Assembly (NCBI GenBank): GCA_964017235.1 | Contig: OZ024929.1 | Coordinates: forward strand, 20,457,464 to 20,521,463 | Direction of reading: 5' to 3' | DNA from: Sabellastarte sp. h YS-2021 | Lineage: Eukaryota > Annelida > Polychaeta > Sabellida > Sabellidae | DNA: 64,000 nucleotides | Shown: in pieces, positions 7,445 to 45,289 of the stretch | Layout: the number at the start of each line of letters is the position of its first letter | Position numbering within the stretch: position 1 is the first letter of the stretch | The notes under the pieces: generated by a model | Database searches by the model: none | Told to the model about the DNA's origin: nothing | Seen by the model: only the letters and a program-made list of their open reading frames with translations | Program-made: the position numbers and the translations under genes

Positions 7445-7625
7445 TTGAAAATTTTAATGACTTAAATGTAGCTTTTATAAGCTACAAGCTTACCATGTGG
7501 GACTGCATGCTGTTCTCAGATGGCCGCAGGCATCCGGCCAACGTCTAAGAAAAAAAGACATTTATAGTTGGCCGTAGCCTCAGGTTGTCCTCTGGTGGTA
7601 CACTACGAGATCTTTTCCTACTTGC
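7445..7625 (-). repeat. DIRS-1 3' inverted terminal repeat
   Basis: Positions about 7488-7625 (TACCATGTGGGACTG through GGCATCCGGCCAACGTCTAA to GATCTTTTCCTAC) match the reverse complement of 13325-13445. The outer 45 bp (7445-7489, containing AGCTTTTATAAGCTAC) is an extension absent from the 5' end but present inverted in the internal complementary region. Confidence 0.9.
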
Positions 7626-7698
7626 TCGTTGCAATTTTTAAAGTTTTAACCTTACCCCTCAGCTGTAATACAGTATGGAGGCAGGGTGGGACTCTTCT

Positions 7699-7795
7699 CA
7701 GTCCCACATGGTAAGCTTGTAGCTTATAAAAGCTACATTTAAGTAATTTAAATTTTCAATTTTATTGCGCTACAATAGCTTACCATGTGGGACTG
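7699..7795 (-). repeat. DIRS-1 internal complementary region (ICR)
   Basis: This 97-bp segment is the reverse complement of the left terminus (CAGTCCCACATGGTAAGC through AAATTTTCAA) joined directly to the reverse complement of the right terminus (TTTTATTGCG through CATGTGGGACTG). The joint is at about 7760. This is the diagnostic DIRS structure, thought to template completion of the ends through a circular intermediate. Confidence 0.9.
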
Positions 7796-8264
7796 AATAC
7801 TGAATCCAACCGCATGGTGGAGGGATTACAGCTGAGACTGGAAGATAAGTCAATTTTTTCTTAGAATTTTGAAGCAATACATTAGAATGAATGTTTTGAA
7901 ATACCAGTCTGAGTCCCGTTTACAGTGCCCCAATCCCGAAGACCAGGCCTGGAAAGAGCCAAAAACCTGAATAGAATGAATGACAGTGCTAAAAACTGTC
8001 AAGATATTTTGATTGTAGGAGAGAAGTGCAGCCGTGCTCACTTAAGAAGTGTAAGGGCCCTTAGGACCCATCCAAGAGTGAAAAAACCAGCCCTATGGTT
8101 GGAATTCTCATAAATTTTTGCCACCTAACATGAGATTAATGACAACCTTGATAAGTCCTTAATACATATTATGCTTGATAAACTAAAAATAACAAATGGC
8201 CTTACCCGTAACATCTTGAGAGGTAAACCTATACCTACACCCTGGGATTAGACTCCTGAAGACA

Positions 8265-8278
8265 CCCCCCCCCCCCCC
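8265..8278 (-). other. Homopolymer C14 (minus-strand G-tract) after the recombinase
   Basis: Fourteen C residues followed by TTTCTTTCC. On the element's coding strand it reads a purine run ending in G14, between the recombinase stop and the ICR. The equivalent place in DIRS-A and DIRS-B also has such a tract. Confidence 0.9.
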
Positions 8279-8348
8279 TTTCTTTCCGAGGATAACTGGT
8301 CTGAGGGGAAGGATCTAGGACTTGTTGTGCTGCCACCACTGGTCCCAG

Positions 8349-11290: not shown

Positions 11291-13093
11291 CCAGTCTCTT
11301 CTGAAAGAACGGAGGCAACCTCCTACTGGTGGACTGAGGCTCCCTCTGGAGAATATGGGCTAAGGATTTGCTGAGGCATGTAAGAGCTCTGTGTTGAATA
11401 AGAACATTCTTTCTCCATACGTCTAAGTATTCACAGGCTTGTTCATATCCACGTTTGGCTGCTTTCTCAGGATTGGCACCTTTTTGGATTTGAGACTTAA
11501 CCTTCTTAAAGGTTGACTTCAGGCTATATTGGCACTTCTCAAGAGTGGCATTGCAAGAAGATGAAGTCTTGGCAAAGGCAGCAGTAAAGTTCAGAGTGGA
11601 TATGTTTTGCCTAGCTTGGTGTTCCAATTCCTTAGGGGAACCTTGCCCATAGGAGCCCCAGGAGGTTTAGGAGTAATACAGATTTTGGCAAAATCTGTAT
11701 TCAACTCTTGCATTTTCTCCTCATAACAGGGCTGTCCCACCTTATACCACTTAGCAGTGGAAGGAGGAGGCTTGATGTATTTACCCTCAGGTAAATTAGT
11801 GGCCTGTAAATCATGCTCAAACTTATCAAAGGCATCTTTGATAACTGAGCTGAGTGGGAGCATAGAGGAAGGATCTCTAGGTCTGAGCTGACGGCCTTTC
11901 TCATCGTCCAGACCCATGACTGAAGTTGAGGACCTAGGCATGGACTCCCTGGGGTCAGGGAGGGAAAGGATGCGTCTGAAAGTGTCCACTTCTTCAGCGT
12001 ATTGGGAGGGAATGTCAGACAGAGCTACTTCCCTATAATAAGGAGGGTCTGGATCATGTTGAGGTCGGTCTTGATCAGAGATAGCCCCAGAGGGCTTTGA
12101 TGACCTGTGTCTGGCTACAGAGGACTGATCCTCCTCTGAAGAAGATGACACGTATCTGGACCTCACCTTATGTTTACTCTTGTCAGCATGTTTTTTTGGA
12201 TTTAGAAGTTGAAATCCGAGGTTCATCGGATTCATCATTGTATTGATCCGAGGCGGACCTCGGTTCAACATCATGCCTTTTATGAGAGTGAGTGTTTTTT
12301 AGGTCTATCCAAAACCTTCTTAGAAGGTTCCTCGGATGGACTAGAAAGCTGATCCAATGCGTTATGATGATCAGCACTAAGACGTGGTTGAAGAGCAGGA
12401 CCATAGTCCACTTCCATTTCTTCAACATGTGAGGTAGTTTGAGGTCTCGGAGGGGGTAGGTCCAGATTTACAGCACTATGGAGGGTCCAGGCTTAGAAGC
12501 TGAAGCCGAGGTCTGATCCACCTCTGCTTGTTTTTTAGATGTCAATTCATCTCGGAGAGACTGGAAAGCTTCTAACTTAGATGCCTGGAAAGAACCCATT
12601 TGCTGCTGTAAAAGGATGTTAAGTGTGTTACCCAGGGATTTTTCTAAATTTGATTCAATCTTCTGCTGTAAGGCAGTACCTGGGGTGGGTGGGACAGTTT
12701 TTGCTGGAGTTTTGAGAGACAATGAACTGAAGGGTAGGGGCTGGGAATGTGGGGGTGAGGTAAATAAGTTATCTGCAGCACTCTCAAGGTCTGCATGAGA
12801 TCCAGTAAAGGAACCCACGTCCTCATCCCCCAGCAGATCGAGTTCATCATCTTTGGAACTAGTAGTGCCCTGCTTTTGCTTTTTAACATAACGTTTCCTG
12901 TGGGTAATTTTAAGTAATTGTTCTTCGGTAAAGGAAGAACAGATCTCACAGGGTCTTCAAACATGACACAGGGGTCATCACCCTTGCCAGATTCCCTACA
13001 GTTAGAGCAGAAATTATGTGTATCAAAAGCAAAGCAAAAGTGACGACACTTACTAGACCTCGGTTTGTCTTTATTCGTCTGGTGGGAAGACAT
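11291..13093 (-). pseudogene. Gag-like protein of DIRS-1, frameshifted
   Basis: The likely start is ATG at 13093 (MSSHQTNKDKP), followed by a His/Cys cluster (CRHFCFAFDTHNFCSNC, then KGDDPC). The frame then changes at least twice. A segment at 12818-12468 has a Gln-rich helical stretch (NILLQQQMGSF). A segment at 12274-11591 is charged and Ser-rich and ends with STAKWYKV and related residues. The last part (11627 to about 11300) is helical with Cys residues (SSSCNATLEKCQYSLKSTFK). The His/Cys cluster at the N-terminus is shared with the DIRS-B gag. Gag proteins of DIRS elements package RNA. The exact 3' limit is not visible, as the frame stays open into RT. Confidence 0.7.
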
Positions 13094-13324
13094 CTTGAAA
13101 CGCAATAAAAAACGTAGATGCAAAACCTGAACCAAGGAAAACTCAAAACCACAAATATATGAAAAAATATTTATCCTGTCGAAACGAAACTTTCACAGAA
13201 TAATCTATGTTATATTTAAAAAGAAATGTCCAAAAATTAACATCCAACAATACATATGTGCTGAGAAACAGGTGAAAATATCTGTGTAAGTTACAGACGC
13301 TACCAATTCATGCGGCCAATGAGA

Positions 13325-13458
13325 AAGTAGGAAGAGATCTCATAGTATACCATGAGAGGGCAACCTGAGGCTACGGCCAACTATAAATGTCTTTTTTTCT
13401 TAGACGTTGGCCGGATGCCTTTCAGTCCCACATGGTAAGCTATTGTAGTGCAATAAAA
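13325..13458 (-). repeat. DIRS-1 5' inverted terminal repeat
   Basis: Reverse complement of about 7488-7625: it contains TTAGACGTTGGCCGGATGCC and CAGTCCCACATGGTAAGC and ends GTGCAATAAAA. The junction with the flank (GATGAATG) is at 13458/13459. Confidence 0.9.
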
Positions 13459-14053
13459 GATGAATGTTTGCTAGTGCCAACTTGATGTCGTAGCTAATAT
13501 AAATAAATGGATCACAGTGTACTGTCTTGTCCTGAAATCCTTAAGTCAAAATAGGTCAAAGAGCATTTTAAATTGTCCATTGCCCTGTCAAATGTGATGC
13601 TAACATAAAACATCTACATAGCAAGTGCCACATAATTATTAGTGCTGCGACACTGTTTGAAGACATTCGATTGTTTGCTCAATAAGTGCTCAGAAAACAA
13701 AGTTTGGTACAAAAGTCTCAAATTCAGACTCTGCAAAACCTTTACAAATCACTAACATGAGATCAAATTCTATTTTCGCCCAAAACATAAAACCCAAAAA
13801 TATGTATCAAATTTTGGGTGGGTGTCTGTACTTTTAGTTTTGCAGGCATTAGTCACATGTTCGCACTAGATCGAACTTAACTAGTACTTAGTGATACCAA
13901 ACATTGAAACCAAAATTAAAAGCAATTTCACGGCACTAACAATGACTATATATATCAATAGAAACCAGCACAGAGATGTCATGCTGATCATGAATATCAT
14001 AGCAGATGGTATGTTTATTTAATCTTGTGAGAACACCTATAAATACACCAAAT
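13459..14053. other. Intron sequence between DIRS-1 and DIRS-A; no gene seen
   Basis: About 600 bp of AT-rich DNA with no useful open frame, no inverted repeat and no splice-bounded exon that I can support. Confidence 0.6.
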
Positions 14054-14268
14054 TTGCAAATTTAATAAGTAAATTAAATTTTTATAAGTTAATACCCTAT
14101 CCAATGGACAATATGCTAAACCGGTCGGCGCAGACCGGCCCGCCAAACGTCAGAAAAAGACGTCCTGTGTTGCCACCGGCTGGCCGGTCCGTAGTACTGC
14201 GCACTCCCCAGATGGCGCCTCATACTTCCTTCCTGTCTAGACAACCTGACGTCATAGCATCTTTTTCG
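14054..14268 (-). repeat. DIRS-A 3' inverted terminal repeat
   Basis: Begins TTGCAAATTTAATAAG, then CCCTATCCAATGGAC, then ACCGGTCGGCGCAGACCGG, ending near GCATCTTTTTCG. Matches in reverse complement 21171-21345. Confidence 0.9.
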
Positions 14269-14329
14269 TTGTCTAAACCTCTTAGACCCCTAGTAAGCTG
14301 ATAGCGGGGTCGGTGGGAGGGTCTTGTGT

Positions 14330-14426
14330 GTCCATTGGATAGGGTATTAACTTATAAAAATTTAATTTACTTATTAAATTTGCAATTTTATTGCGTTAAT
14401 ACATCCTATCCAATGGACAATATGCT
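14330..14426 (-). repeat. DIRS-A internal complementary region
   Basis: GTCCATTGGATAGGGTATTA through TTAAATTTGCAA is the inverse of the left terminus; TTTTATTGCGTTAATACATC through CCAATGGAC is the inverse of the right terminus. The two halves are fused without spacer. Confidence 0.92.
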
Positions 14427-14588
14427 GAATAACTACCGCTTGGTCGGCGGGTAAGTTACTAGGGAACTATGTGAACTCACAAATGATAATAAATTTTAAC
14501 CTAAGGTCTAGGCTGACTTTGTCAGGAGACCTATAGGCCCAGGCCTGGATTGCCAACAGCCGGTTACCCGGGGGCTATACCGACGTCG

Positions 14589-14604
14589 CCCCCCCCCCCC
14601 CCCC
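14589..14604 (-). other. Homopolymer C16 (minus-strand G-tract) in DIRS-A
   Basis: Sixteen C residues followed by TTTAACAG, at the same relative place as in DIRS-1 and DIRS-B. Confidence 0.9.
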
Positions 14605-14867
14605 TTTAACAGACCTGCTCTGAGGTAGGGGGAAGAGAGGGATGAGTTCAGTTCAGTCCCAGAATGTCAATAAACCTCCCAAAGGAAGTGCATCACATTT
14701 TTACTATGTACAATTAGAAAATGTTTATACTCTGTACATATATACAAATCTCCTCAATCTAAGGGCCACCTGTGGATCTGCGGAGCAGCCACTACCGAGC
14801 CCGATTGGTAAAGCTCTGAGTCAGCCCAAGCCACACCCCTCAGATATAACTGTGTGAGGGTATTATG

Positions 14868-15850
14868 TGACTTCAGTGGCAGGCTGACAAGATTGGATCT
14901 AAGGAGACTCCCGACTGGAAGACCTTAGGAGCAGCAAAGGCCCTGACATCATGGGTTTTAGCCTGATGTGAAGAGTGGGCCTCTTGGTCAGAGAGCTCAT
15001 AACATAGGATCACAGTCTGCTTGATCTAAGAGGAGATAGAGGCAGATGTCTTGTCGAACCTTTCTTAAAGGATACAAAACAACCACCTCCTTATTCTACT
15101 TGAGGTCTGAGGTCCTGTCCAAATAGTAGCGTAATGCTCTAACTGGAAAACAAGGGGACCTGTCAGACTAGAGGGATCTATCCAGAGAAGAAGGCCAGGG
15201 TTGTTGTAACCACTGGGGGCACACTGTCTGGACCCTCCTGACCAGCTGATTCTTGGATAGAAAGCTGGGTAATGGATACAGGGACACCGTTGACCAATTC
15301 GATTCATAGATTGGTGTCTAATATTTTTGCTTTGCCAAGCATGAATCTCACTTCTGCGTTTATCCGACCCAAGGGCCAAGAAGAATACCGTCTTGAAGGT
15401 CAAATACTTCAAGGAGGCCTCCTTGATTGGTGCAAACGGAGCCTTATTCAGTTGGTGCAAAACCAGTGAGAGGTTCCAGGAGGGGATGCCCCTCCTGCCT
15501 TTGGGTCTGTCTCTGTGGAAACTATCCAGGAGACGAGCGAGATTTTTGTCCTTGCTGATGTTGAAGGGGGGATTTCCCAGTTTATCAGCAATGGCTGAAC
15601 TGTAACCATCAATGGTGCTGGGCTGAATCTTCCTGTCCTTATAAGGTACATAAGGAAGTCAGCAACTGACTTTACAGGGGTACCCTGAGTTCCACCTGAT
15701 TAGTGACGAACCACTTGTAACAATGGTCCACTTTGCCTCATGGCCTGATCTGGTTGATCCCTTTTTAGGAGCCTCAATTCTTGCTGCCACCGCCTCAGCG
15801 AAGCCCTGCTCCTCAAATGCTGAAGCTCCAGGAGCCGAGCATCAAGATTA
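14868..15850 (-). pseudogene. Tyrosine recombinase remnant of DIRS-A, first copy
   Basis: Minus-strand fragments keep recognisable recombinase blocks: FKTVFFLALGSDKRRSEIHAW with the first catalytic Arg (about 15390), GRQ-type C-terminal sequence near 14880-14960 corresponding to the HxxR and CHW boxes, and the core-binding part above 15500. Frameshifts after NIRHQS (about 15320) and elsewhere destroy the reading frame. Compared with DIRS-B it is clearly non-functional. The part above 14949 is repeated at 16365-17270. Confidence 0.85.
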
Positions 15851-16364
15851 AGATTTGTCAGATTTCTGTGAGGGATCTGATTGAATGGTTGTGTCAACAG
15901 GTTGGGCAGATTGGGCAGGCTCAGTGGGATTTGGCTGGACATGGCCACTGGATCCCAAAACCAAGGCATGATGGGCCACCCCGGAGCAATCAGAATGATT
16001 CTCTTGTATGGGGAGCCCTGCAACATCACCGCTTTGCCCAATATGGCTGACAGTGGGAAGGTGTATGCTTCCTGATCCTACCATGACAAAACGAGCGCAT
16101 TCACTGCTGTAACCAGGGGATCCGGTACCGGTGACACAAACAAGGGCAACTTGTTATTGAACCTCGTGGCAAATAGATCTAGTTGAGGCCGGCGCCACCT
16201 GTTGCATATGGCTTGGAAGAGCTCCTGAAGGAGAGACCACTCTGTTCGGGTGGTCTGGCCTAGTCTGGATAGCTTGTCTGTGACCACACTCAGCCAGCCT
16301 GTGTCGGGCTTTTAGAGTTACTTGATTTCTGGCGCACCAGGTCAAGATTCTCCATAGTAAAGCA
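15700..16364 (-). pseudogene. RNase H / methyltransferase-like remnant of DIRS-A, first copy (partial)
   Basis: Contains DLFATRFNNKLPLFVSPVPD (about 16190-16130) and IILIAPGWPIMPWFWDPV (about 16000-15945), blocks of the DIRS methyltransferase-like domain, in shifted frames. The upstream RNase H part is cut off by the duplication joint at 16364/16365. Confidence 0.82.
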
Positions 16365-17270
16365 TCATGGGTTTTAGCCTGATGTGAAGAGTGGGCCTCT
16401 TGGTCAGAGAGCTCATAACATAGGATCACAGTCTGCTTGATCTAAGAGGAGATAGAGGCAGATGTCTTGTCGAACCTTTCTTAAAGGATACAAAACAACC
16501 ACCTCCTTATTCTACTTGAGGTCTGAGGTCCTGTCCAAATAGTAGCGTAATGCTCTAACTGGAAAACAAGGGGACCTGTCAGACTAGAGGGATCTATCCA
16601 GAGAAGAAGGCCAGGGTTGTTGTAACCACTGGGGGCACACTGTCTGGACCCTCCTGACCAGCTGATTCTTGGATAGAAAGCTGGGTAATGGATACAGGGA
16701 CACCGTTGACCAATTCGATTCATAGATTGGTGTCTAATATTTTTGCTTTGCCAAGCATGAATCTCACTTCTGCGTTTATCCGACCCAAGGGCCAAGAAGA
16801 ATACCGTCTTGAAGGTCAAATACTTCAAGGAGGCCTCCTTGATTGGTGCAAACGGAGCCTTATTCAGTTGGTGCAAAACCAGTGAGAGGTTCCAGGAGGG
16901 GATGCCCCTCCTGCCTTTGGGTCTGTCTCTGTGGAAACTATCCAGGAGACGAGCGAGATTTTTGTCCTTGCTGATGTTGAAGGGGGGATTTCCCAGTTTA
17001 TCAGCAATGGCTGAACTGTAACCATCAATGGTGCTGGGCTGAATCTTCCTGTCCTTATAAGGTACATAAGGAAGTCAGCAACTGACTTTACAGGGGTACC
17101 CTGAGTTCCACCTGATTAGTGACGAACCACTTGTAACAATGGTCCACTTTGCCTCATGGCCTGATCTGGTTGATCCCTTTTTAGGAGCCTCAATTCTTGC
17201 TGCCACCGCCTCAGCGAAGCCCTGCTCCTCAAATGCTGAAGCTCCAGGAGCCGAGCATCAAGATTAAGAT
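16365..17270 (-). pseudogene. Tyrosine recombinase remnant of DIRS-A, second copy (partial)
   Basis: Identical to 14949-15850, lacking the C-terminal part below 14949. The same frameshifts are present, so the duplication happened after the gene had died. Confidence 0.85.
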
Positions 17271-17990
17271 TTGTCAGATTTCTGTGAGGGATCTGATTGA
17301 ATGGTTGTGTCAACAGGTTGGGCAGATTGGGCAGGCTCAGTGGGATTTGGCTGGACATGGCCACTGGATCCCAAAACCAAGGCATGATGGGCCACCCCGG
17401 AGCAATCAGAATGATTCTCTTGTATGGGGAGCCCTGCAACATCACCGCTTTGCCCAATATGGCTGACAGTGGGAAGGTGTATGCTTCCTGATCCTACCAT
17501 GACAAAACGAGCGCATTCACTGCTGTAACCAGGGGATCCGGTACCGGTGACACAAACAAGGGCAACTTGTTATTGAACCTCGTGGCAAATAGATCTAGTT
17601 GAGGCCGGCGCCACCTGTTGCATATGGCTTGGAAGAGCTCCTGAAGGAGAGACCACTCTGTTCGGGTGGTCTGGCCTAGTCTGGATAGCTTGTCTGTGAC
17701 CACACTCAGCCAGCCTGTGTCGGGCTTTTAGAGTTACTTGATTTCTGGCGCACCAGGTCAAGATTCTCCATAGTAAAGCACAAGGTGGGCCCGACCTCAT
17801 GCCTCCTTCCCTGTTTATGTATGACACCACTGTGGTGTTGTTTGTCTCTACAAGTACTATCTTGTGCATACAGGGGTCTTGGAACTGCCTGGAGTTCTAG
17901 GTAATTGATATGCAACTTGCTTTCCAGGAGGGACTAGGTGCCACCTGCAGTGTGTTCGTTTAAGTGAGCACCCCACCCTGCGTTTGATGA
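17116..17990 (-). pseudogene. RNase H / methyltransferase-like remnant of DIRS-A, second copy
   Basis: Continues past the duplicated unit into NNTTVVSYINREGGM and HINYLELQAV, the RNase H Asp and Glu blocks, with at least one frameshift. It joins the RT remnant upstream at about 18.0 kb. Confidence 0.8.
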
Positions 17991-17999
17991 ATCTGTAAA

Positions 18000-18990
18000 A
18001 TTTGCAGATCATGTTTTATTTGGGTGTAATGGTTGGCCTGTAAGGACATTGTCCTCTTGCAACCACCCTTGTAAATGTGGGTGCAATACCTTGGTATGTA
18101 AGGACATTGTCCTCTTGCAACCACCCTTGTAAATGTGGGTGCAATACCTTGGTATTGGAATCACATTTTCTAGTGACTCTGGTTCCCTCCAGTTGTTTTT
18201 GAGATGCCACTGTATGGGTCTCCTATAAAGTTGGCCCAGGTGAAATTGCTTTCCTGTGGCTGTTAGTAAACCTATCAGACATGAACTGCTGGACCGGACA
18301 AACCGGTAGTGACAGTATTTCTAGTATTTGTCCTGAAGGTTCTGCCAATGGTCCGGTATAGGTCGGACCCGACCGACCATGAGGTCGAACTGGTAACCTG
18401 AACTTGGGCATATTTTCACTAGATCTAGTGTATGCCGGAGACAAACCCCAGTGGGGTGTGCCTTTCACCAATCAGTCGTCTAAGTACTGGTGGATTATTA
18501 TACCCTTGTGTCTGGCCATCAGTTTCACCTCCTTTGCTACTACAGTGAGCTCCATGGGTGCAGTGGACAGACCGAAAGACAGTGCTTTGAACTGGTATGT
18601 CCGAACCTGGACATGACATTTGATATGTCTTGGACTGTTCCTGTATAGGTATATGGAAGTAGGCGTTCTTGAAATCTATTGAGGTAACACACTCCCATTG
18701 TTGGAGGGTGGTCCTGATGGTCTCCGAAAGGTTTGGTTTGCTCAGACCTACAATAGGTCTCCAATGGTTGTGTGGTTTTGGAACCAAGCAAGGTTGAAGA
18801 AGCTCAGAGATTTTGAACTGGCTCGACTGCACCATTCCTTGTCCATAAGCTGATGTAATGCTTTTAACCAATATAGGTTCCTGTGAAGATGTGTGTAGCA
18901 TTTGATAATTTGGGTGACCTTGTCAAACTTGGTCTTGACTGGAAAGGGAGAGTGCAGCCCTCCTTCAACATTGTACTACCTAGGGTCCAG
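18000..18990 (-). pseudogene. Reverse transcriptase remnant of DIRS-A
   Basis: Blocks seen on the minus strand are LVPKPHNHWRPIVGLS (about 18780), SIDFKNAYFHIPI (about 18680) and, in another frame, QYLDD (about 18495-18481). The codon after the YLDD metal-binding box is TGA where DIRS-B has Trp. A further frameshift follows KTYQM. The N-terminal lead-in (HLPVGSRL, then TLPFQSRPSLTRSP at about 19050-18920) matches that of DIRS-B. Non-functional. Confidence 0.85.
18031..18155. repeat. Direct repeat of ~62 bp, two copies, in the RT/RNase H linker of DIRS-A
   Basis: The unit with TGTAAGGACATTGTCCTCTT and GGGTGCAATACCTTGGTAT occurs twice in succession, adding about 62 bp to the linker. Confidence 0.88.
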
Positions 18991-19268
18991 CCCCCCCCAA
19001 GGCTTCCTAAGTCCCGAAACGGGGTTAGTCTGGACCCTACAGGCAAATGTGTGCCACATTCGGGACATTTGCTAGTCCAACAAACATTTCTATCCCTCCG
19101 GCTTCCGGATACTGGTCCGGTCTGGTGACAATGATCCGAGAAAACAGACTCTCTGTTCTTGCTGTGGTCCGGTCCAGTGGCGCTGACACAACTTTTCACA
19201 TTTAAAAGACTCTTGCCCCAGGCCAGCATCCTGCAAGGTGCAGGCCAGCACCCTGTTTGTAGACTTGT

Positions 19269-19551
19269 AACCGGTAGGTTGAAGCAAGTGTACAAGGCTG
19301 TGTAGCCAGCACCAGCCGGTACACTCTAACCAGTTGTTGAAGCAAGTGTAAAAGGCTGTGTAGCCAGTACCAGCCGGTACACTCTGTAACCAGTTGTTGA
19401 AACAAGTGTACAAGGCTGTGTAGCCAGTACCAGTCGGTACACTCTGTAACCGATTGTTGAAGCAAGTGTACAAGGCTGTGTAGCAAGTACCAGCCGGTAC
19501 ACTCTGTAACCAGTTGTTGAAGCAAGTGTACAAGGCTGTGTAGCCAGTACA
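19269..19551. repeat. 60-bp minisatellite, ~4.7 copies
   Basis: The unit contains TTGTTGAAGCAAGTGTACAA and GGCTGTGTAGCCAGTACCAG and recurs every 60 bp. Because 60 is a multiple of three, several minus-strand frames stay open and show a 20-residue periodic peptide; I regard these as by-products, not genes. Confidence 0.92.
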
Positions 19552-19699
19552 AAACATTTGCTAAAGCAATGTTACAACTATCTTATGTGTTGAATTCAGC
19601 TTGCTGTAGGTTTCCTCCATTAATTAAGGTATCCCTTTAATCGCACGTCTACTTTGTAGATTTGACAGTTGCTGGGAAAGCCCCTGTGATCTATTTTTA

Positions 19700-20420
19700 G
19701 AAACACTTGGTGTTCGGTGTGTCACATGACCAGCTTGCTGGTCGGAAAGACATGCGATTGGCTGATTGGAGCTCGTCAGTTGTGGCGTTCTTTTGTGATA
19801 CTTAAACATGCAAATGCGCAGTATTCTGCTAATCCACAAACCTCACTACCGACAACGAAGCCGGGCCTGCAAGGCAGGGACTGGAATCACAGTAGACGTG
19901 AGTTCTGAAGAACGCACTTCCGACCTTCCTGGTCGGTGTAAACACGTGACCTGCTTCGTGATTGTTCAGAAGGACACGTGATTGGCTGACTGGGGATGAC
20001 GTCAGTAGTCGCATTCTTTGTGTGATGCTTTACCGGCAACTTTACAGTCCACAAAACCCCACTACCGACAACCAGGCCGGGTCTGCAAAGCAGGGACTGT
20101 AGTCACAGTAGACGTGAGTTCTGAAGAACGCACTTCCGACCTTCCTGGTCGGTGAAAACACGTGACCTGCTTCGTGATTGGTCAAAAGGACACGCGATTG
20201 GCTGACTGGATATGACGTCAGAGGTCGCGTTCTTTGTGCTGGCCGGTCGGCTGATGCCTTAAAAGCAGAGAAGCCTGGGCCAGTGCGCTCTGTAGATGAA
20301 GTCCTGGCAGGTCTGAAGTCGATTCTTCTTCTCAGCCCGCTGTACACTCAAACCAGTGTCTTGGCCATCCACTGCCCTTACTACCGACACAAGTGCCGGG
20401 TCCACAAGGGAGGGACTGAG
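19700..20420. repeat. ~217-bp imperfect tandem repeat, ~3 copies
   Basis: CACTACCGACAAC recurs at 19846 and 20063, with a weaker copy (TTACTACCGACACAAG) at 20378. The block between includes GACGTGAGTTCTGAAGAACG and CTTCCGACCTTCCTGGTCGG, nearly identical between copies. It lies in the 5' part of DIRS-A where gag would be expected. Confidence 0.8.
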
Positions 20421-20464
20421 AGTGATTAAGATGAAGTTCCTTCTATGTAAATAGGGGAGGTCGG

Positions 20465-20750
20465 CTGAACATGAGCTTGCTGGTCAACTAATGCTTTACA
20501 GCAAAGATGTCTGGACCAGTGCGCTCTGAAGAAATCTGAAGAATTCTCTTGCTGCAGATGTACATATATATAAGCTTACCGGTCGACTAATGCTTTAAAG
20601 CAAAGATGTCTGGACCAGTGCGCTCTGAAGAATTCATCTATTGCTTCTGATGAAAAAACACTAATTACTCGAGCTAGGCTGGTGTGACTGATGCTTAACA
20701 GCAGAGAAGTCGGTACCAGTGCGCTCTGAAGATGAAGAATGCATCTTGCT
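20465..20750. repeat. ~100-bp imperfect tandem repeat, 3 copies
   Basis: AAGATGTCTGGACCAGTGCG followed by CTCTGAAGA recurs near 20505, 20604 and (diverged) 20707. It continues the repeat-rich 5' part of DIRS-A. Confidence 0.75.
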
Positions 20751-21170
20751 TGGGGAATTCCTTCTTTACAGAGTTCAAAACTACGTAGACTGAAGTTTGC
20801 CGTGATTTCTATTTGTAGTACTAGAAAAGACGTTTACGCAGGTACATACAACAAATAACACGGATAAAAATACCTTGTAAGTAGTATATCCATTATATTT
20901 CTAAATATTGTCGATCTGCCCCTAACAACACAATTGTTGAATGGGAGGAAACTAGAAAAAGCTGCCTTCATATTTCTCGTAGATTACTGCCCTATCATCA
21001 ACACTAAATTGAGTCAACTAGGGAGCGTTTCCAGCAGATTTCTCGATGTATATCCGTAACACTTTAACAATAAATTATTTGCAAATAAGGTATAAAATCC
21101 ATCATAATGCACACTTTCCTTAAAATATCTGGAGATTGTTGAAAACACGTTCGCACAGTACACGCGCCAA

Positions 21171-21363
21171 ACGAAAAAGATGCTATGACATCAGGTTGTC
21201 TAGACAGGAAGGAAGTATGAGGCGCCATCTGGGGAGTGCACAGTACTACGGACCGGCCAGCCGGTGGCAACACAGGACGTCTTTTTCTGACGTTTGGCGG
21301 GCCGGTCTGCGCCGACCGGTTTAGCATATTGTCCATTGGATAGGATGTATTAACGCAATAAAA
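21171..21363 (-). repeat. DIRS-A 5' inverted terminal repeat
   Basis: Reverse complement of 14095-14268, ending ACGCAATAAAA at 21363. The next base begins the TTGCAA terminus of DIRS-B. Confidence 0.92.
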
Positions 21364-21578
21364 TTGCAAATTTAATAAGTAAATTAAATTTTTATAAGTT
21401 AATACCCTATCCAATGGACAATTGCTTTACCGGTCGGCGCGACCGGTCCCGCCAAACGCCAGAAAAAGACGTCCTGTATATACTACCGGCAGGACCGGTC
21501 ACAGAGTGTGCATTCGCCAGGTGGCGCATCGTACTTCATTTCCTGTTTACCTCTTGACGTCATAGCATCTTTTTCGTG
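21364..21578 (-). repeat. DIRS-B 3' inverted terminal repeat
   Basis: Contains CCTATCCAATGGACAATTGC, then ACCGGTCGGCGCGACCGGT, then ACGTCATAGCATCTTTTTCG; it is the reverse complement of 28211-28385. Confidence 0.92.
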
Positions 21579-21638
21579 TCTAATCCTAGTAAGACCCCTA
21601 GTAAGCTGATAGCGGGGCCGGTTGGGTGGGCCTTGCCT

Positions 21639-21734
21639 GTCCATTGGATAGGGTATTAACTTATAAAAATTTAATTTACTTATTAAATTTGCAATTTTAT
21701 TGCGTTAATACATCCTATCCAATGGACAATTGCT
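21639..21734 (-). repeat. DIRS-B internal complementary region
   Basis: The inverse of the left terminus (GTCCATTGGATAGGGTATTA through TTAAATTTGCAA) is fused to the inverse of the right terminus (TTTTATTGCGTTAATACATC through CCAATGGACAATTGC). It differs from the DIRS-A ICR at only a few positions. Confidence 0.93.
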
Positions 21735-21794
21735 GAATAACTACCGCTTAGCAGGCGGGTAAGCAGCTAGGGACTTATGTGAACTCATAACAAC

Positions 21795-22311
21795 TAGTGC
21801 TGGGAGATCGCTTGGATTTTTCCTGTCGAAGTTCGTATCGGACATTTGTAACCAAACTTCGAACATTTCCGATTATGGAGTTGAAGTGTAAAAAAGACAG
21901 ATAAAATATTAATATTAAATTATATCAAGTAAAATACACACAAATTGCCACAAATATGACCAAAATATAATCTAAAAGCCATTCACAGACGTCTCCCTCA
22001 CTAACAGACTATGCTTGATGTATTCTCACTTGTGATTGGCTGATTTTGATTACCTTGACAACAGTGGGAAAACCCCAAGGTGTTTCTAATTACGTGATTT
22101 TTATTGCATTCACGGGTAGTTTTGTGATTTTAACTGATGGATATTTCAGATTTTTACAAAATATTATTAAGGTTAGTATTTTATTGTGACCAAAAGGCTG
22201 CAAAGAAATGGATTTAGCAAATATCGGTTTTACTTAAAGTTTGCCGATCATTGATTGGCAATGAGCCAGCGAGCGATAATACCGAAGTTTGCAAACATCG
22301 TCCCAGCACTA
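21795..22311. mobile_element. hAT-like MITE inserted in DIRS-B 3' region
   Basis: Inverted ends TAGTGCTGGGA and TCCCAGCACTA, flanked by the 8-bp duplication ATAACAAC (21787-21794 and 22312-22319). The 517-bp interior is AT-rich with no transposase. The 8-bp duplication is characteristic of hAT transposition. Confidence 0.92.
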
Positions 22312-22416
22312 ATAACAACAATTTTTAAACAGGCCCATTTGACCTAGGGTCAGAGAACCCTGAAAGGTCAGGGTCGGTCACTAACTCACCGGTTAACCGG
22401 GAGCCTACCGACGTTG

Positions 22417-22427
22417 CCCCCCCCCCC
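22417..22427 (-). other. Homopolymer C11 (minus-strand purine tract) in DIRS-B
   Basis: Eleven C residues followed by TTTTTTCTTTCCTTTC; on the coding strand this is a purine run ending in G11, polypurine-tract-like, between the recombinase stop and the ICR. Confidence 0.9.
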
Positions 22428-22625
22428 TTTTTTCTTTCCTTTCAGAGTGGTCTGAGTTGGAAAGATAGGGAGAGAGAGGGGCTGAGTTCAGTCCCAGAAG
22501 AAATAAACTTCCCAAAGGAAGCAAATCACAGTTGTTTAACATATATGTACATCCAACATATTTACATTATGTACATATCTAGCATATTTACAATATGTAC
22601 ATATTTACATATATACAACATCTCC

Positions 22626-25600
22626 TCACTTCTGGGCCTGGTGGTGCACCTGCTGGGCAGCCACTACAGGTCCCAGGTGGAAAAGCTCTGAATCAGCCCA
22701 GGCAACATCCTTCAAATAAAATTGGGTGAAGGTGTTGTGAGATTTCCAGTGGCAGGCTGACAAGATCTGATCTAAGGAGATCCCTGATTGGAAAGCCTTA
22801 GAAGCAGCAAAGGCCCTAACATCATGGGCTTTAACCTGATGTAAGGTGAGGGCCTCCTGGTCAGAGAGCTCATAGCACAGAACCACAGTCTGTTTGATCC
22901 ATGAGGAGATGGTGGCAGGCGAGATGTCTTTATCAAAACCCTTCTTGAAGGAGACAAAGACTAACTCCTTATTCTGCCTGAGGTCTGCAGTCCTGTCCAA
23001 GTAGTAACGCAGGGCTCTAACTGGACATAGGGACCTGTCACCCTTGAGTGACCTATCCAGAGATGGTGCCAGGGCTGGGATGACCACTGGTGCCACACTA
23101 TCTGGACCTTCCTTAGCCAGCTGATTCTTGGATAGGAAGCTGGGTGAGGGGTACAAAGACACCTTAGACCAGTCTGACTGGTGTCTGATGTTCTTATGTA
23201 ACCAAGCATGGATCTCACTCCTGCGTTTACCTGAACCCAAAGCCAGCAGGAAAACAGTCTTGAAAGTTAAATGTTTCAAGGAGGACTCTTTCAGGGGTTC
23301 AAAAGGAGCCTTTGTGAGCTGTAAAACCAGTGAAAGGTTCCAGGAGGGGATGCCCCTCCTGCCCTTAGGTCTGTCTCTATGGAAACTATCCAGGAGACGA
23401 GTGAGATTCTCATCTTTGCTGACATTAATGGTGGAATTGCCCAGTTTGTCAGCAATGGCTGATCTGTAGCCATCAATAGTGCCTGGTTGTAACTTCTTGT
23501 CCTGGAACAAGTGCAGGAGGAAGTCAGCAATGGCTTTCAGAGGTGGTACCCTGAAGTCCACCTGATTACTGAGGCACCACTTTGTAAAAATGGTCCACTT
23601 TGCCTCATAGACAGATCTGGTTGATCTTCTTTGAGGAGCCTCAATTCGTGCTGCCACTGCCTCAGAGAAGCCTTGCTCCTTGATTGCTGAGGCTCTAGGA
23701 GCCAGGCATGTAGGTTCAGATTCGACAGGTTCCTGTGAAGGACCTGGTTGAATGGCTGAGACACAAGGTTTGGTATGCTGGGCAGACAGAGTGGGATCTG
23801 GCTTGACATTGCTACCAGGTCCCAAAACCAGGGCATGTTGGGCCACCCTGGGGCAATCAGGATTATTCTGTTGCAGGGGTAGTCCTGGAGCTTCTCCACC
23901 ACTTTGCCCAAGATGGCTGCCGGTGGGAAGGCGTATGGGTCCAGGTCCTCCCAGGAGAGGCTGAGTGCATCCACTGCCCAAGCCTGGGGGTCTGGCACCG
24001 GTGACACAAACTGGGGTAGTTTGTTGTTGAACCTGGTGGCAAACAGGTCCACTTTTGGCTGGTGCCACCTTGCGCATACAGCTTGGAATACTGCTGGATG
24101 AAGTGACCACTCTGTTTGAATGATCTGGCCAAGTCTGGATAGCTTGTCTGCTATCACGTTCAGCCGGCCGGGGATGTGACGTGCCCTGAGGGTTACCTGT
24201 TGTCTGGTGCACCAGGACAGGATTCTCCACAGTAGGGCACACAGTGACCCCGACTTCATCCCCCCTTCTTTGTTGATATAGGCAACCACTGTTGTGTTGT
24301 CTGTAGCTATCAACACAGTCTTGTTGCAGACCAGGGTTCGAAACTCCTTTAGAGCTAGAAAAACTGCTTTTAGCTCTAAGTGGTTTATGTGCAACTTGCT
24401 TTCTGGAAGGGACCAGGTTCCCCTTGCAGTATGGTCGTCCAAGTGAGCGCCCCACCCTTCGTTTGATGCGTCTGTAAAGATCTGCAGAGCATGTTTTAGA
24501 GGGTGTAATGGTTGACCTAGTAGCACATTGCTTTCCTCCAGCCACCACCTTAGATGAGGATGGAGGGACTTGGGGACCGGTATCACCTTTTCCAGTGATT
24601 CTGGGACCCTCCAGTTGTTTTTCAAGTGCCACTGTATGGGTCTCATGCGGAGTCGCCCTAAGTGGACTTGTTTTTCTGTTGCTGTGAGGAGACCTATGAG
24701 GGACATGAATTTCCGGACCGGACAAACCGGATCCGACATCATTGATCTGATCTTGTCTGTCAAAGCCTGCCAACGTTCTTCTGTTGGTCTGACCTTGCCC
24801 TCTTTCAGGTCGAACTGGTAACCTACAAAGTTGAAGACCTGTTTGGGTGCCAGTTCTGACTTTTCCTTGTTCACCAGCCACCCTAGTTCCTGACAAAGTG
24901 TGACCAGGGTTTGAGTATGCTGGAGACAGGTGTGGAGGGTAGAGGCCCTCACCAGCCAGTCGTCTAGGTACTGGTGGATTCTTATACCCTGTCGTAAAGC
25001 CATGAGCTTGACCTCTTTGGCCACCATTGTGAACTCCATGGGTGCAGTGGAAAGACCAAAGGGCAGGGCCTTGAACTGGTAGGATTGGCCCTGAATGTGA
25101 AAACGCATGTACTTCCTTGACTGACTGTGAATTGGTATGTGGAAGTAAGCGTCTTTGAAATCTATGGATGTGACCCACTCCCCTGCCTGTAGGGAGGATC
25201 TTATTGTCTCTGGGGTCTCCATCTTGAACGACTCTGTGTTTAAAAAGGTGTTCAAAGTGCTCAGGTCCAAGATAGGTCTCCACCGGTTGTTGGGTTTGGG
25301 AACCAAAAATAACCGGTTGTAAAACCCTAGGGAGGTCTGATTTGTTACCGGTTCTACTGCATTCTTGTTTGTTAGCTGAGTCAGTGCCTCCAAAAGGAGG
25401 GACTGTCTTTGGGGGTTTACATATTTGCTGATGACCATTGGTGACCTGGTTAGGGTGGGTCTGAACCGGAAGGGAAGGGTGTAGCCCTCTCTCAGTATTC
25501 TGATAACTTTTGGACTGGCACCCAGAGTTTCCCACTTCTCCCAAAACTGCTGAAGTCTTGCCCCTACAGGAAGATTTGTGACAACAGTTGGGACATTTGT

Positions 25601-25676
25601 GACAATTTTTACAAAACTCAAGTGATCTACACAGGAAACATCTTTCACATGGTTTATTTCTCTGATAGATTGACAA
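22626..25676 (-). CDS. Tyrosine recombinase of DIRS-B, at the 3' end of a 1016-codon open frame
   Basis: The recombinase occupies about residues 655-1016. It starts near CLAPRASAIKEQGFSEAVAA; the core-binding part contains TIDGYRSAIADKLG. Catalytic residues visible are Arg in GKRRSEIHAW (about 815), the HxxR box in KAHDVRAFAAS (about 950), CHWKSHNTF (about 975) and Tyr in QFYLKD (about 985). The stop is at 22626. Upstream, the same frame stays open for another ~650 codons across the RT-RNase H-methyltransferase gene and begins with a Cys-rich cluster (residues about 10-38, 10 Cys, containing CKNCHKCPNCCHKSSC). Whether that upstream part is translated is unknown; the recombinase may start internally or by frameshifting. 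It should integrate a circular DNA intermediate. The domain call is secure, the N-terminus is not. Confidence 0.9.
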   Translation of the reverse strand: MSIYQRNKPCERCFLCRSLEFCKNCHKCPNCCHKSSCRGKTSAVLGEVGNSGCQSKSYQNTERGLHPSLPVQTHPNQVTNGHQQICKPPKTVPPFGGTDSANKQECSRTGNKSDLPRVLQPVIFGSQTQQPVETYLGPEHFEHLFKHRVVQDGDPRDNKILPTGRGVGHIHRFQRRLLPHTNSQSVKEVHAFSHSGPILPVQGPALWSFHCTHGVHNGGQRGQAHGFTTGYKNPPVPRRLAGEGLYPPHLSPAYSNPGHTLSGTRVAGEQGKVRTGTQTGLQLCRLPVRPERGQGQTNRRTLAGFDRQDQINDVGSGLSGPEIHVPHRSPHSNRKTSPLRATPHETHTVALEKQLEGPRITGKGDTGPQVPPSSSKVVAGGKQCATRSTITPSKTCSADLYRRIKRRVGRSLGRPYCKGNLVPSRKQVAHKPLRAKSSFSSSKGVSNPGLQQDCVDSYRQHNSGCLYQQRRGDEVGVTVCPTVENPVLVHQTTGNPQGTSHPRPAERDSRQAIQTWPDHSNRVVTSSSSIPSCMRKVAPAKSGPVCHQVQQQTTPVCVTGARPPGLGSGCTQPLLGGPGPIRLPTGSHLGQSGGEAPGLPLQQNNPDCPRVAQHALVLGPGSNVKPDPTLSAQHTKPCVSAIQPGPSQEPVESEPTCLAPRASAIKEQGFSEAVAARIEAPQRRSTRSVYEAKWTIFTKWCLSNQVDFRVPPLKAIADFLLHLFQDKKLQPGTIDGYRSAIADKLGNSTINVSKDENLTRLLDSFHRDRPKGRRGIPSWNLSLVLQLTKAPFEPLKESSLKHLTFKTVFLLALGSGKRRSEIHAWLHKNIRHQSDWSKVSLYPSPSFLSKNQLAKEGPDSVAPVVIPALAPSLDRSLKGDRSLCPVRALRYYLDRTADLRQNKELVFVSFKKGFDKDISPATISSWIKQTVVLCYELSDQEALTLHQVKAHDVRAFAASKAFQSGISLDQILSACHWKSHNTFTQFYLKDVAWADSELFHLGPVVAAQQVHHQAQK

Positions 25677-26185
25677 TAATCGGGATTTACACCTTTCTTT
25701 TGCGGTGACCCGTTGGCAAAAGGAACACTTGCAACAAAAGAGTTTACATGTGGAAACACAGTCTCGCTCTTGTTTGTCACTGGTGGTGGTGGGTACAAGC
25801 CCTCCATCTTGTCGGATACATTTACAGAGTTCACCAATCCGACCACATTTGCAAAACAGTGATTGTCATTTATGCTTTTTAAATCCCCTGGCCGGCTTCT
25901 GGATGAAGTTTGAGGCTTTACCACCACCTTTCTGAGCAGTTTGCCGGTCTCTAATCTGCTTCCATGCCGGAGTAGTGGGCTTCCGGTCCGGCTGGTGAGG
26001 GGTTCGATTGGAGGAGACGTATGGATGAAAACGTCCAGGTTTCCTTGGTGTGGTACCAGCAGAACGCCTCTCTTCACTACGTAAGATTTCCTCTTCAGCT
26101 TTGACCAGTAAGCTGTCCGGGAAGAGTGATAGTTGGTGAACTGGAGACGTACGTAAGGCAGACAAGGTGTCCGGTTTAATCCCAC
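23537..26185 (-). CDS. Reverse transcriptase - RNase H - methyltransferase-like polyprotein of DIRS-B (882 codons)
   Basis: Domains in order: lead-in with GARLQQFWEKWETLGAS and LREGYTLPF (about 205-240); RT with FLVPKPNNRWRPILDLS, SIDFKDAYFHIPI (about 340) and the catalytic QYLDDWL (about 403); RNase H with FTDASNEGWGAHL (about 568), LELKAVFLAL, ATDNTTVVAYINK (about 625) and NVIADKLSR; methyltransferase-like domain with DLFATRFNNKLPQFVSPVPD (about 710), DPYAFPPAAIL (about 750) and IAPGWPNMPWFWDL (about 780). No stop interrupts it. It overlaps the end of gag by about 320 bp in another frame, so the true start may lie downstream of the first Met or depend on frameshifting. It would copy the RNA genome into DNA. 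It overlaps the recombinase frame for 2140 bp. Confidence 0.92.
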   Translation of the reverse strand: MGLNRTPCLPYVRLQFTNYHSSRTAYWSKLKRKSYVVKRGVLLVPHQGNLDVFIHTSPPIEPLTSRTGSPLLRHGSRLETGKLLRKVVVKPQTSSRSRPGDLKSINDNHCFANVVGLVNSVNVSDKMEGLYPPPPVTNKSETVFPHVNSFVASVPFANGSPQKKGVNPDYCQSIREINHVKDVSCVDHLSFVKIVTNVPTVVTNLPVGARLQQFWEKWETLGASPKVIRILREGYTLPFRFRPTLTRSPMVISKYVNPQRQSLLLEALTQLTNKNAVEPVTNQTSLGFYNRLFLVPKPNNRWRPILDLSTLNTFLNTESFKMETPETIRSSLQAGEWVTSIDFKDAYFHIPIHSQSRKYMRFHIQGQSYQFKALPFGLSTAPMEFTMVAKEVKLMALRQGIRIHQYLDDWLVRASTLHTCLQHTQTLVTLCQELGWLVNKEKSELAPKQVFNFVGYQFDLKEGKVRPTEERWQALTDKIRSMMSDPVCPVRKFMSLIGLLTATEKQVHLGRLRMRPIQWHLKNNWRVPESLEKVIPVPKSLHPHLRWWLEESNVLLGQPLHPLKHALQIFTDASNEGWGAHLDDHTARGTWSLPESKLHINHLELKAVFLALKEFRTLVCNKTVLIATDNTTVVAYINKEGGMKSGSLCALLWRILSWCTRQQVTLRARHIPGRLNVIADKLSRLGQIIQTEWSLHPAVFQAVCARWHQPKVDLFATRFNNKLPQFVSPVPDPQAWAVDALSLSWEDLDPYAFPPAAILGKVVEKLQDYPCNRIILIAPGWPNMPWFWDLVAMSSQIPLCLPSIPNLVSQPFNQVLHRNLSNLNLHAWLLEPQQSRSKASLRQWQHELRLLKEDQPDLSMRQSGPFLQSGASVIRWTSGYHL

Positions 26186-28088
26186 CCCTTATGAACTCTA
26201 AATAACTGTCCCGCCGGGCCAGGGTGAGATTAGCCATGCTGATAAAGACTCCCTCTGACAAATCCTGCATGGTACGCTGCATAGCCTGTGAAATTGACCG
26301 GTTAAACGTAACCAGATATTCCAGCTCTTCAACAGCTTGTTGTTTCTCAGCACTTTTACCCTTTGAGGAATCGAACCTGAGGGATTTTAACTGGGTGACC
26401 ATGGAGTCCTGTACCTTGGTGAGGCATCTAGAGAGGCCAGCAGCGTGATTACACATCACTGATTGTTCTCTGAATGACCTCTCCCACCTTCTAAGGGTGT
26501 CCTGGCTGAAGGTCCTGGAAGCTGGAGCAGAAGGTAAACTGCGTCTTGCAACTCTAGAAAACATACTGTTAAGCTTTGCCGGTTCCGGAGACCAGTCACC
26601 AACAGCCTGGGTAGACGCATCCTTTTTAACAGCTTGCATGTCGTACCACTTTGAAGTACGGGGTGTCTTGACAAATTGGTCACGCAGTAGACCACTGGTT
26701 TCTGACCAATGGGAGGCGACTGGTTAGACAGCGTAGTTTTATAACTGGAAGGCAGAACCTCAGGACCCGCACCGGGAGCCTGTGGAGGCTGGGTGGCAGT
26801 CCCTGCACCGGGAACCAGTAAAGGTTGGGTGGCAACAGTCTCAGAGGTACCGGGGCCCTGAACAGGGTGGGTAGCACTCTCATTCACTTCCTTCACAGCT
26901 TGTGTACCAGGAACCCCCAGCGGAGGTTGGGTAGCCGTCAACTGCGTAGCAACGTCACTAGTGCCCTCAGAAAACATAACACTTGTAGAAGCACCCGGAT
27001 CAAAGAAGGGGTGTTCTCTGGGCACCACAGAAGCAGAATTCACCGGTCTCACAGGGACAGCAAATGACTGGTTAATCAGCATTGCTTCCAGACGGGAAAA
27101 TCTCTCACTCCACTTGTCATCAAGGGACTTGAGGTCGTCAGAAGTAGGCTTACTGCTGTGCTTCCGTTTAGTAGACCTTGGGGAACCATCAGAACGCTTC
27201 TTCTTGTGCTTGGGTGTAGTGTAGGGATTGGTGCTCGATCTTTCAATATCGATCGATCATCCCACAGAACTGCCGATATCGACACATACTACCAGCATTT
27301 CAATATCGAAACCACATATAAGAAACAGACAAAAATAAAATAAACAGAGTAATTTTACTGCTTAAATAAATATTTATTACATAAACGCCTTAAAAAGCAC
27401 ATTTACAACCGAAATAAATTGGTTCAAGTCTGGCGCCATCTTTGTTTACATTGTCAGTGACAACTTCCGGTTTCACGGAAGAGAAACAAAACCTGACAGC
27501 TAGTACACAAAAAAGCATGAAAACTCTTATTTGATTGGATTTTTGTTCATTTTATTTAATTTTATATTGCAGAAATATATTTTTGGTGCATAAGTAGTAT
27601 CTTTTGATAATTTCGTGAATTTATATGTGCACGTTTTCAAACAACCTGTATTATCGCCCACGGCTTACGTTAACGGTCCCGATATTGAAATATCGATCGA
27701 TCCACAACCCTAAATTTTCATTCGATATCGATCCTCAATATGGCTCTCGATCCCTATACTACTTGGGTGTAGAATCAACAGGAGACTGCGTCCCTGAATT
27801 GACCGGACCCAGCAGTGAAACCTCAGACGGATCAACAAGCTTGGGAGACGTACTTGTCAAATCTTCAGATTTCTTCTGGCTAGAGCGTTCTTTCCTTTCC
27901 TTGTAGGTCGGGGTTGCTAACTGGTGGATCTGAGCAGGCGTAAACGCCTTACAGATACTACAGTCCAACTTCTTTACACACGGGTCGTCTCCCACCCCCT
28001 TGTCACGACAACGCGCGCATTTCTTATGGTTGTCGAAAAGGGCCATAACGTGCCCGCAAGAACCTCGTTTCTGTCCAGGAGACGACAT
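25866..28088 (-). pseudogene. Gag-like protein of DIRS-B, interrupted by a MITE and a frameshift
   Basis: The likely start is ATG at 28088 (MSSPGQKRGS). A His/Cys cluster follows at residues about 11-40 (CGHVMALFDNHKKCARC, then GVGDDPC), possibly zinc-binding. The frame runs into the hAT MITE at 27761; on the other side (from 27216) it resumes in register across one copy of the target duplication, with a basic stretch (KKKR, KRKHSSK) and then a Pro/Gly/Ala-rich section with repeats of TQPP. Around 26690-26720 the frame shifts by one base; the C-terminal part (about 26710-25866) has TSKWYDMQAVKKDAS and a helical middle, ending Lys-rich at a stop at 25866. Gag role is inferred from position. 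Confidence 0.75.
27217..27761. mobile_element. hAT-like MITE inserted in DIRS-B gag
   Basis: 545 bp, with ends TAGTGTAGGGAT and (inverted) TAGTATAGGGAT and the 8-bp target duplication CTTGGGTG at 27209-27216 and 27762-27769. The interior contains repeated ATCGATCGAT-type palindromes near both ends and no transposase. Confidence 0.92.
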
Positions 28089-28210
28089 AATGATCAGGAA
28101 CGTTGTAGAATTATTCCGTACTAATAAAAAACAAGAAACTTGGAAGAGTTCTTTGTAAAAATTCAAAAGCGTATCTCTGAAGAAAATCTTCTGCACACTC
28201 TTTCGCGCCA

Positions 28211-28402
28211 AACGAAAAAGATGCTATGACGTCAAGAGGTAAACAGGAAATGAAGTACGATGCGCCACCTGGCGAATGCACACTCTGTGACCGGTCCTGC
28301 CGGTAGTATATACAGGACGTCTTTTTCTGGCGTTTGGCGGGACCGGTCGCGCCGACCGGTAAAGCAATTGTCCATTGGATAGGATGTATTAACGCAATAA
28401 AA
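28211..28402 (-). repeat. DIRS-B 5' inverted terminal repeat
   Basis: Reverse complement of the left repeat, from AACGAAAAAGATGCTATGAC through GCGCCGACCGGTAAAGC to ACGCAATAAAA. Confidence 0.92.
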
Positions 28403-29279
28403 ATGTAATTTATTAGGATTTTCATGTTAGAATCAAAATGAAACCAAACTCCACCAATGTCTATGTTATGGCAATAATCCATCAGTGGGCGGACATCATG
28501 CAGACGTATAACTCTGATTGGCAGTTTAGTAACACAAAGGCATAGCTTTTTTGCTTTTGCCTCTTGACCAATCAGATTCACTGACACAGCTGCATTATAT
28601 AGGTATTTATTTATCAAATCTAGCTGATTTAGTTATGATAACTGCTTGTTTGCTCAACTTGTCTGTTTTAGAACACTGGTAGTTACATCTATGCAGCCAT
28701 GGCTCATACTGAGTGGATTAAGTGCCCAATACTTTACACAACCGACTCAGCAAAGTAACATGAAATGTGAAATTTGCCAATATGGAAACCAGCTTCTAGT
28801 TTTGTGACTTTTTTTACTTTTAAACTACTTTTTTTTACTTTTAAACTACTTTTTTTTTTTTTTCTACTTTAAAAAAAAAATAGCGTCAGATAAGCCCGTA
28901 TCCCACAGCCTGGGGAAATAGTTTTCAACACCATGAGATATAGTAGTGAAACAGCACAAAGATTGGGATACTTTCAGGGCAGTGGTAGTTATATAAAGTT
29001 CTAAATAATGTTTAAGTAGAGAAAATAACATCTCAGAGAAAGAAAATGAATGTAAAAATAAAGTATTAAAACAAGAAAATTCAATAGCAAGATGACAGCA
29101 TTAATCAAAAAACTAAAAATTATGTAGCTGTAAAATTTATTACTTGTAAAATAGCTGTCAATGGAAACAGCACAATTATGTAAATGTGTATATAATAATC
29201 AGTTGCAGCAGTCCATATATCTTTGTCAGATATGGTAGAGGTCACAAATATGGCAGGTGAACACACTTTGGCAGAGCCA
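28403..29279. other. Intron; no gene; T-rich and A-rich runs
   Basis: Nothing coding is visible. A T-rich stretch with repeats of ACTTTTAAACTAC lies at about 28809-28870, followed by an A run. Confidence 0.6.
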
Positions 29280-29965
29280 AAGTTAAAGGTTGCAACCTGA
29301 TGGACACCTGCACCCCCTAACCTATGTCCCTACCAAGTGTCAACCTTCTACATCTTATGGAATCCAAGAAATACCCAGACAAGATTTTAAAAATCATGGT
29401 CACTATGACAAGGTCAAATCAAGTTTACACCATGATGTTACACACCTTCAACTCCCAACCAATGTCCCTATCAACTTAGCAAGTATCAACTTCCTACACC
29501 TTATGGTTGACGAGATATAGCCCGGAAAAGATTTTCAAACTCAAGGTCACTACAGCAAGGTCAAATCAAGTCAAACCATGATGTTGCACACCTACACCCC
29601 CTAACCAATGCCCTACCATTTATCAACTTTCTACACCTTACGGTTTCCACTATAAAGCCCGGACAAGATTTTATAGGTAAAGGTCACTACGGCAAGGTCA
29701 AATCCAGGTCACACCATGACATTGTACACCTACAACCCCTAACCAATGTCCCTACCAAGTATCAAGTTCCTACACCTTACAGTTTTCAAGACATAGCATG
29801 GACAAAATTTTATAGGTCAAGATCACTACTACAACTTCAAAGGTCAAATCAAGGTCATACCATGACGTTACACACCTACACCCCCTAACTAATGTCCCTA
29901 CCAGTAATCAACTTCCTACACCTTACGGTTGCCAAGATATAGCCCGGACAAGATTTTCAGTTCAA
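29280..29965. repeat. ~140-bp satellite, second array, about 5 copies
   Basis: Same unit as at 1-1545 (CCAATGTCCCTACCAAGTAT, GATATAGCCCGGA, CAAGGTCAC). Copies here are also diverged and in the same orientation. Confidence 0.9.
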
Positions 29966-45255: not shown

Positions 45256-45289
45256 GTTGTTTTCATAATAATGAGTTATTTGTGAAATA

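Follow-up and report, generated by a model that had tools for sequence, protein, structure and literature searches.

The window, the 64,000-nucleotide stretch of Sabellastarte sp. h YS-2021 DNA analyzed here, holds three DIRS-like elements between 7.4 and 28.4 kb, which we refer to as C, A, and B in order of position. All three lie on the minus strand, and each has inverted terminal repeats together with an internal complementary region (ICR) near its coding 3′ end that is complementary to both termini. The features on which our analysis draws are as follows.

7441-13458, minus strand: DIRS element C, belonging to a more distant family and having ends and an ICR of its own, 595 bp from A
14050-14053: AAAT, outer edge of the A-B pair beside A
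14054-21363, minus strand: DIRS element A, coding sequence decayed, with terminal repeats and ICR, 7,310 bp
14096-14270: terminal inverted repeat of A, coding 3′ side, 99% complementary to 21170-21344, 175 nt
14329-14429, minus strand: ICR of A, 99% complementary to 21320-21420 over 101 nt
21170-21344: terminal inverted repeat of A, coding 5′ side, pairing with 14096-14270
21328-21420: joint, the 5′-terminal end of A fused to the 3′-terminal end of B, 93 nt equal to the reverse complement of both ICRs
21355-21367: joint center, read from the sequence as GCAAT-AAA-ATTGC, a short inverted repeat with the presumed crossover core AAA(A) in its middle
21364-28402, minus strand: DIRS element B, long open frames, with terminal repeats and ICR, 7,039 bp
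21406-21577: terminal inverted repeat of B, coding 3′ side, 100% complementary to 28212-28383, 172 nt
21638-21730, minus strand: ICR of B, 100% complementary to 21328-21420 over 93 nt
22626-25865, minus strand: frame of B with a C-terminal putative tyrosine recombinase, 1,079 codons (Phage_integrase, 0.00068)
23537-26188, minus strand: reverse transcriptase (RT)/RNase H frame of B, 883 codons (RVT_1, 5.6e-23; RT_RNaseH, 5.2e-06)
28212-28383: terminal inverted repeat of B, coding 5′ side, pairing with 21406-21577
28399-28402: AAAA, outer edge of the pair beside B

A and B are each a complete DIRS1-like element. The putative recombinase of B matches Phage_integrase at 19.9 bits, below the Pfam curated cutoff of 27.1, and no PDB match was found for it; RRSEI, HDVR, and a C-terminal Y can be read in its sequence, and we take these to be the catalytic motif residues of a tyrosine recombinase. 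RVT_1 was also matched in A (4.4e-05, below the curated cutoff) and in C (6.9e-16), whose RT matches that of B at 54% over 622 amino acids and whose inverted terminal repeats span 104 nt at 92%. No methyltransferase domain was matched in Pfam at 0.01 in the nine frames scanned, and a search of Rfam returned 0 matches. In viral_contigs, the 21-nt joint pattern had 0 matches, and the RT/RNase H frame of B had 1 pattern match and 0 confirmed relatives. The two long frames of B are open together over 2.3 kb (23537-25865); in the available part of Piednoel et al. (2011, PMC3266345), long open reading frame overlaps are reported for half of 28 DIRS elements and for none of the molluscan ones. According to the same partial source, DIRS1-like retrotransposons resemble A and B in having inverted terminal repeats and an ICR near the 3′ end complementary to both termini, in encoding RT/RNase H and a tyrosine recombinase (predicted in B), and in a short circular junction common to element and target without target duplication, which is the arrangement that we see at the outer edges. 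The core here, TTT(T) on the coding strand, is as in the Xenopus elements of its Table 3, unlike four of its five mollusc elements, which start and end with ATT, and both A and B exceed the longest of its 28 elements (6,283 bp).

A and B meet with no spacer between them. Read on the minus strand, the "right end of A" and "left end of B" of the first-pass annotation are the A 5′ end and the B 3′ end, and the two elements are joined head to tail as it had claimed, with A ending at 21363 and B starting at 21364. The last bases of A are ACGCAATAAAA (21353-21363) and the first bases of B, from 21364, are TTGCAAATTTAATAAG; the B 3′ terminus begins TTGCAAATTT directly after the A 5′ terminus. Four A's at 21360-21363 fit either element and are assignable to neither. 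The joint is the exact reverse complement of the ICR of A over 98 nt (21323-21420) and of the ICR of B over 93 nt (21328-21420), with 0 mismatches in both comparisons, and an exact 93-nt match is not chance. Because both ICRs read as its exact reverse complement, the joint is the circle junction to be expected from either A or B. This bears out the annotation's proposal that the fusion is the circle junction predicted by the ICR, and its description of the joint as self-recreating holds in sequence, the full junction sequence being restored there. The AAA(A) at the center is presumably the crossover core, and the ICR of C has CGCAATAAAATTG at the corresponding position.

Outside these shared blocks the two elements have diverged. 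DNA identity between A and B is 73 to 77% in their four longest coding matches, 80% in a further 49-nt piece, and 85 to 88% in the terminal matches, identical ends included. The coding identity in the four longest matches rules out a simple tandem duplication of one element, in agreement with the earlier statements that the pair is no simple recent tandem copy and that its members are unlike in terminal repeats and coding decay; their coding sequences differ as well. Not recorded in the annotation is that A and B carry identical sequence over their outermost 59 and 36 nt and over the 93-nt ICR block. These are the three longest exact runs that A and B share (93 nt in the ICR, 59 nt at the coding 3′ terminus, and 36 nt at the coding 5′ terminus); the next longest, at 29 nt, lies in a coding stretch doubled by the internal duplication of A. 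At the substitution rate of the remaining terminal repeat, zero differences in 95 nt has a P of ∼5e-6, an estimate that treats sites as independent and takes 158 sites for the drifting part of the repeat (a recount of 150 gives a slightly smaller value). On this basis, the attachment site has been held constant as its neighborhood drifted, either through selection for binding of the recombinase or through copying templated by the ICR. We assign A and B to two distinct, diverged DIRS1-like retrotransposon families that have one attachment site in common. Elsewhere in the pair, degenerate tandem repeats at 19244-20750 fill the 5′ half of A and have no match to the corresponding part of B, and between matching flanks B has ∼600 bp (21790-22389) where A has ∼80 bp, an insertion in B or a loss in A.

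The coding sequence of A is broken. By tblastn alone, its RT match is split across all three minus-strand frames, and a frameshift-aware comparison with the frames of B counted 3 stops in each of two regions, with 13 frameshifts over 637 aligned codons of RT/RNase H and 9 over 343 codons of recombinase (first internal copy only), a total of 6 stops and 22 frameshifts over 980 aligned codons, with the reservation that some frameshifts may be alignment noise in diverged stretches. By the same measure, C has 2 stops and 1 shift in RT/RNase H and likewise in recombinase. The two terminal repeats of A are 2 substitutions apart and those of B are 0 apart; in both elements there is a 2-nt gap between the repeats at their divergent outer part. 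Neutral accumulation of the 6 stops since insertion would imply 16.7 differences in 172 nt, and the probability of 2 or fewer is 9e-6. It rises to 0.025 with a low value of 2.6 for stop events, and the same test with indels gives 0.076, which is nonsignificant. Because its terminal repeats are nearly identical against the 16.7 differences expected, A was probably broken before its last move and was likely moved in trans by the proteins of an intact relative such as the family of B. Conversion between the two terminal repeats of A could also keep them alike. Inside A, an exact 1,418-bp tandem duplication (14947-16364 and 16363-17780) is either recent or an assembly artifact.

The pair has AAA in common at its two outer edges, and C, which is bounded by AAAA on both sides, has AAAA in common; at none of these edges did we see a duplication longer than the 3- to 4-nt A-tract. 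These boundaries fit recombination at a core of ∼3 nt, and the lack of further duplication is as predicted by the model of recombination at a 3-bp circular junction given in the available part of PMC3266345. The AAAT beside A leaves one core base unmatched. An empty site was not found in the window, in that neither flank of the pair (13459-14053 and 28403-29300) has a second copy there at an E value of 1e-5.

From the anatomy of the pair, the exact identity of joint and ICRs, and the conservation of the site between diverged elements, all of which are observed, we infer a circle, a recombinase reaction, and a choice of target. In our preferred explanation, to which we assign a probability of about two in three, the circle of one element was integrated by tyrosine recombinase at the A-tract that terminates the other element, recreating the circle junction. 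After reverse transcription, the ICR would template a circle whose joined ends read ...GCAAT-AAA-ATTGC..., and the recombinase would exchange strands between the A-tract of the circle and a genomic A-tract. The genomic A-tract used would be the one closing the end of a resident element (the A 5′ end or the B 3′ end), and the product would be a spacer-free pair whose joint is again a full circle-junction site; the pair would be head to tail without a spacer because the genomic A-tract closed the end of the resident. In favor of this explanation, both elements are complete up to the joint, and B keeps long RT/RNase H and recombinase frames. The unmatched base of the AAAT counts against it, as do the outer flanks, which bear no clear likeness to element ends, and the sub-cutoff recombinase match of B, and the evidence for end-to-end integration is one joint. 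A simple circle model may also fit poorly with the linear, single-stranded cDNA intermediates that a 2020 paper reportedly names in its title. The first-pass annotation had combined the circle-junction fusion with the claim that the recombinase used the end of a resident element as its integration site; the fusion stands as observed, and the integration step is likely.

The annotation further proposed the AAAA/TTG junction as a preferred target, which this one joint does not establish. The recombinase could have made the joint even if element ends are no better targets than other A-tracts, the pair then being among the few that arise by chance in a many-copy genome. A-tracts are indeed very common (1,364 AAAA and 3,799 AAA sites on both strands in the 43,633 bp outside the three elements), and the joint was picked because it is striking. 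We compared the sequence beyond the outer A-tracts with the adjoining element ends, against 1,361 AAAA sites of the window, and the outer flanks of A-B and of C showed no clear likeness to element ends. A single comparison in 18 fell below 0.05 (A left flank, 12 nt, 0.029, with no correction for the 18 comparisons), the next lowest being 0.056 (B right flank, 8 nt), and with 17 of 18 at 0.05 or above we rejected flank resemblance as evidence of target preference. Even within the window, however, a random landing would strike one of the 2 to 4 element-end sites in only ∼0.05 to 0.3% of cases, a post hoc figure for a joint chosen as striking. An element end also holds half of the recombinase's own site, and self-targeting is published for other DIRS elements. 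We therefore consider a random landing unlikely, although it is the alternative to which we give the most weight.

The remaining alternatives do without integration by recombinase at a resident end. A circle could have crossed over with the end of the other element by host homologous recombination, using the identical 36 or 59 terminal nt; such stretches are present, and the product would look alike. They are short, however, beside several kilobases of 73 to 77% homology, where crossovers would yield A/B mosaics, whereas A and B each keep their own type up to the joint, and we regard this route as very unlikely. We are, if anything, slightly more skeptical that A and B were joined before integration, in a two-element circle or by template switching between copackaged RNAs, and then inserted together. 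The outer edges of the pair are single copy with only AAA in common, as one insertion would leave, and by their terminal repeats both elements look recently inserted, but this account requires an extra unobserved step, and template switching should favor the homologous interior and produce mosaics, none of which are seen at the joint. Least probable of all is an assembly path through the ICR repeat that wrongly joined A to B. Both ICRs do repeat the junction string in inverted orientation, so that very short words might be misjoined, and the 1,418-bp duplication in A could itself be an artifact; yet the stretches in common measure only 36 to 98 nt, and if the duplication is real, the reads were long enough to pass them easily.

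The A-B pair is a real case, and a clean one, of diverged DIRS elements joined end to end, which is a known habit of these elements and not a new kind of system. Bacterial tandem lysogens and integrative elements arise when a circle integrates at the att site bounding a resident, giving a head-to-tail array with the junction restored; these are DNA elements with longer, specific att sites, whereas here a retrotransposon has a core of ∼3 nt. Among tyrosine-recombinase retrotransposons, DIRS-1 of Dictyostelium discoideum likewise inserts into its own resident copies, and circular DNA is reported as verified, in the available text of PMC5633606; its self-targeting is described there as having no apparent sequence preference, in contrast to the exact end-to-end joint found here. 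"Homing" of zebrafish and notothenioid DIRS1 into preexisting copies, with the formation of clusters, is described in the accessible parts of PMC5941688 and PMC6387122, which, unlike the present case, describe no end-to-end junctions. The TATE elements of kinetoplastids, as far as they are presented in the accessible part of PMC6681497, also lie in tandem clusters but have split direct repeats and a telomeric-repeat target, with ends unlike those of DIRS1. The literature searched, which lay largely outside subscription journals, contained no case of two diverged DIRS families abutting exactly end to end.

The DIRS integration model has largely been deduced from element ends, and in 2018 the proposed mechanisms were said to "remain to be experimentally demonstrated" (PMC5941688, available part). 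That deduction gains support from a natural joint whose sequence, between diverged elements, matches the junction predicted by the ICR, and the joint supplies a delimited site of ∼95 nt on which a recombinase could be assayed. Its perfect conservation, despite a difference of about a quarter in coding DNA, marks the extent of the site and suggests that DIRS families use one common integration machinery, which would explain the recent movement of a broken element. More speculatively, the tandem joint could be a working attachment site. If diverged DIRS families keep one site and compatible recombinases, dead elements such as A would be moved in trans, arrays would grow at element ends, and the recombinase could use a joint of two copies to free a neighbor again as a DNA circle, with no need for reverse transcription; we consider this extended scenario unlikely.

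The window contains several other repeats. Two related arrays of a ∼139-bp unit (1-1507 and 29298-29961) lie 28 kb apart. Satellite-like blocks with 133-bp and 155-bp units occupy 42260-48015, each occurring twice ∼3.4 kb apart as near-identical counterparts. These blocks are flanked by long inverted repeats (38656-39127 and 49696-50180; 80 to 92%) ∼11 kb apart, which are possibly the ends of another large element.
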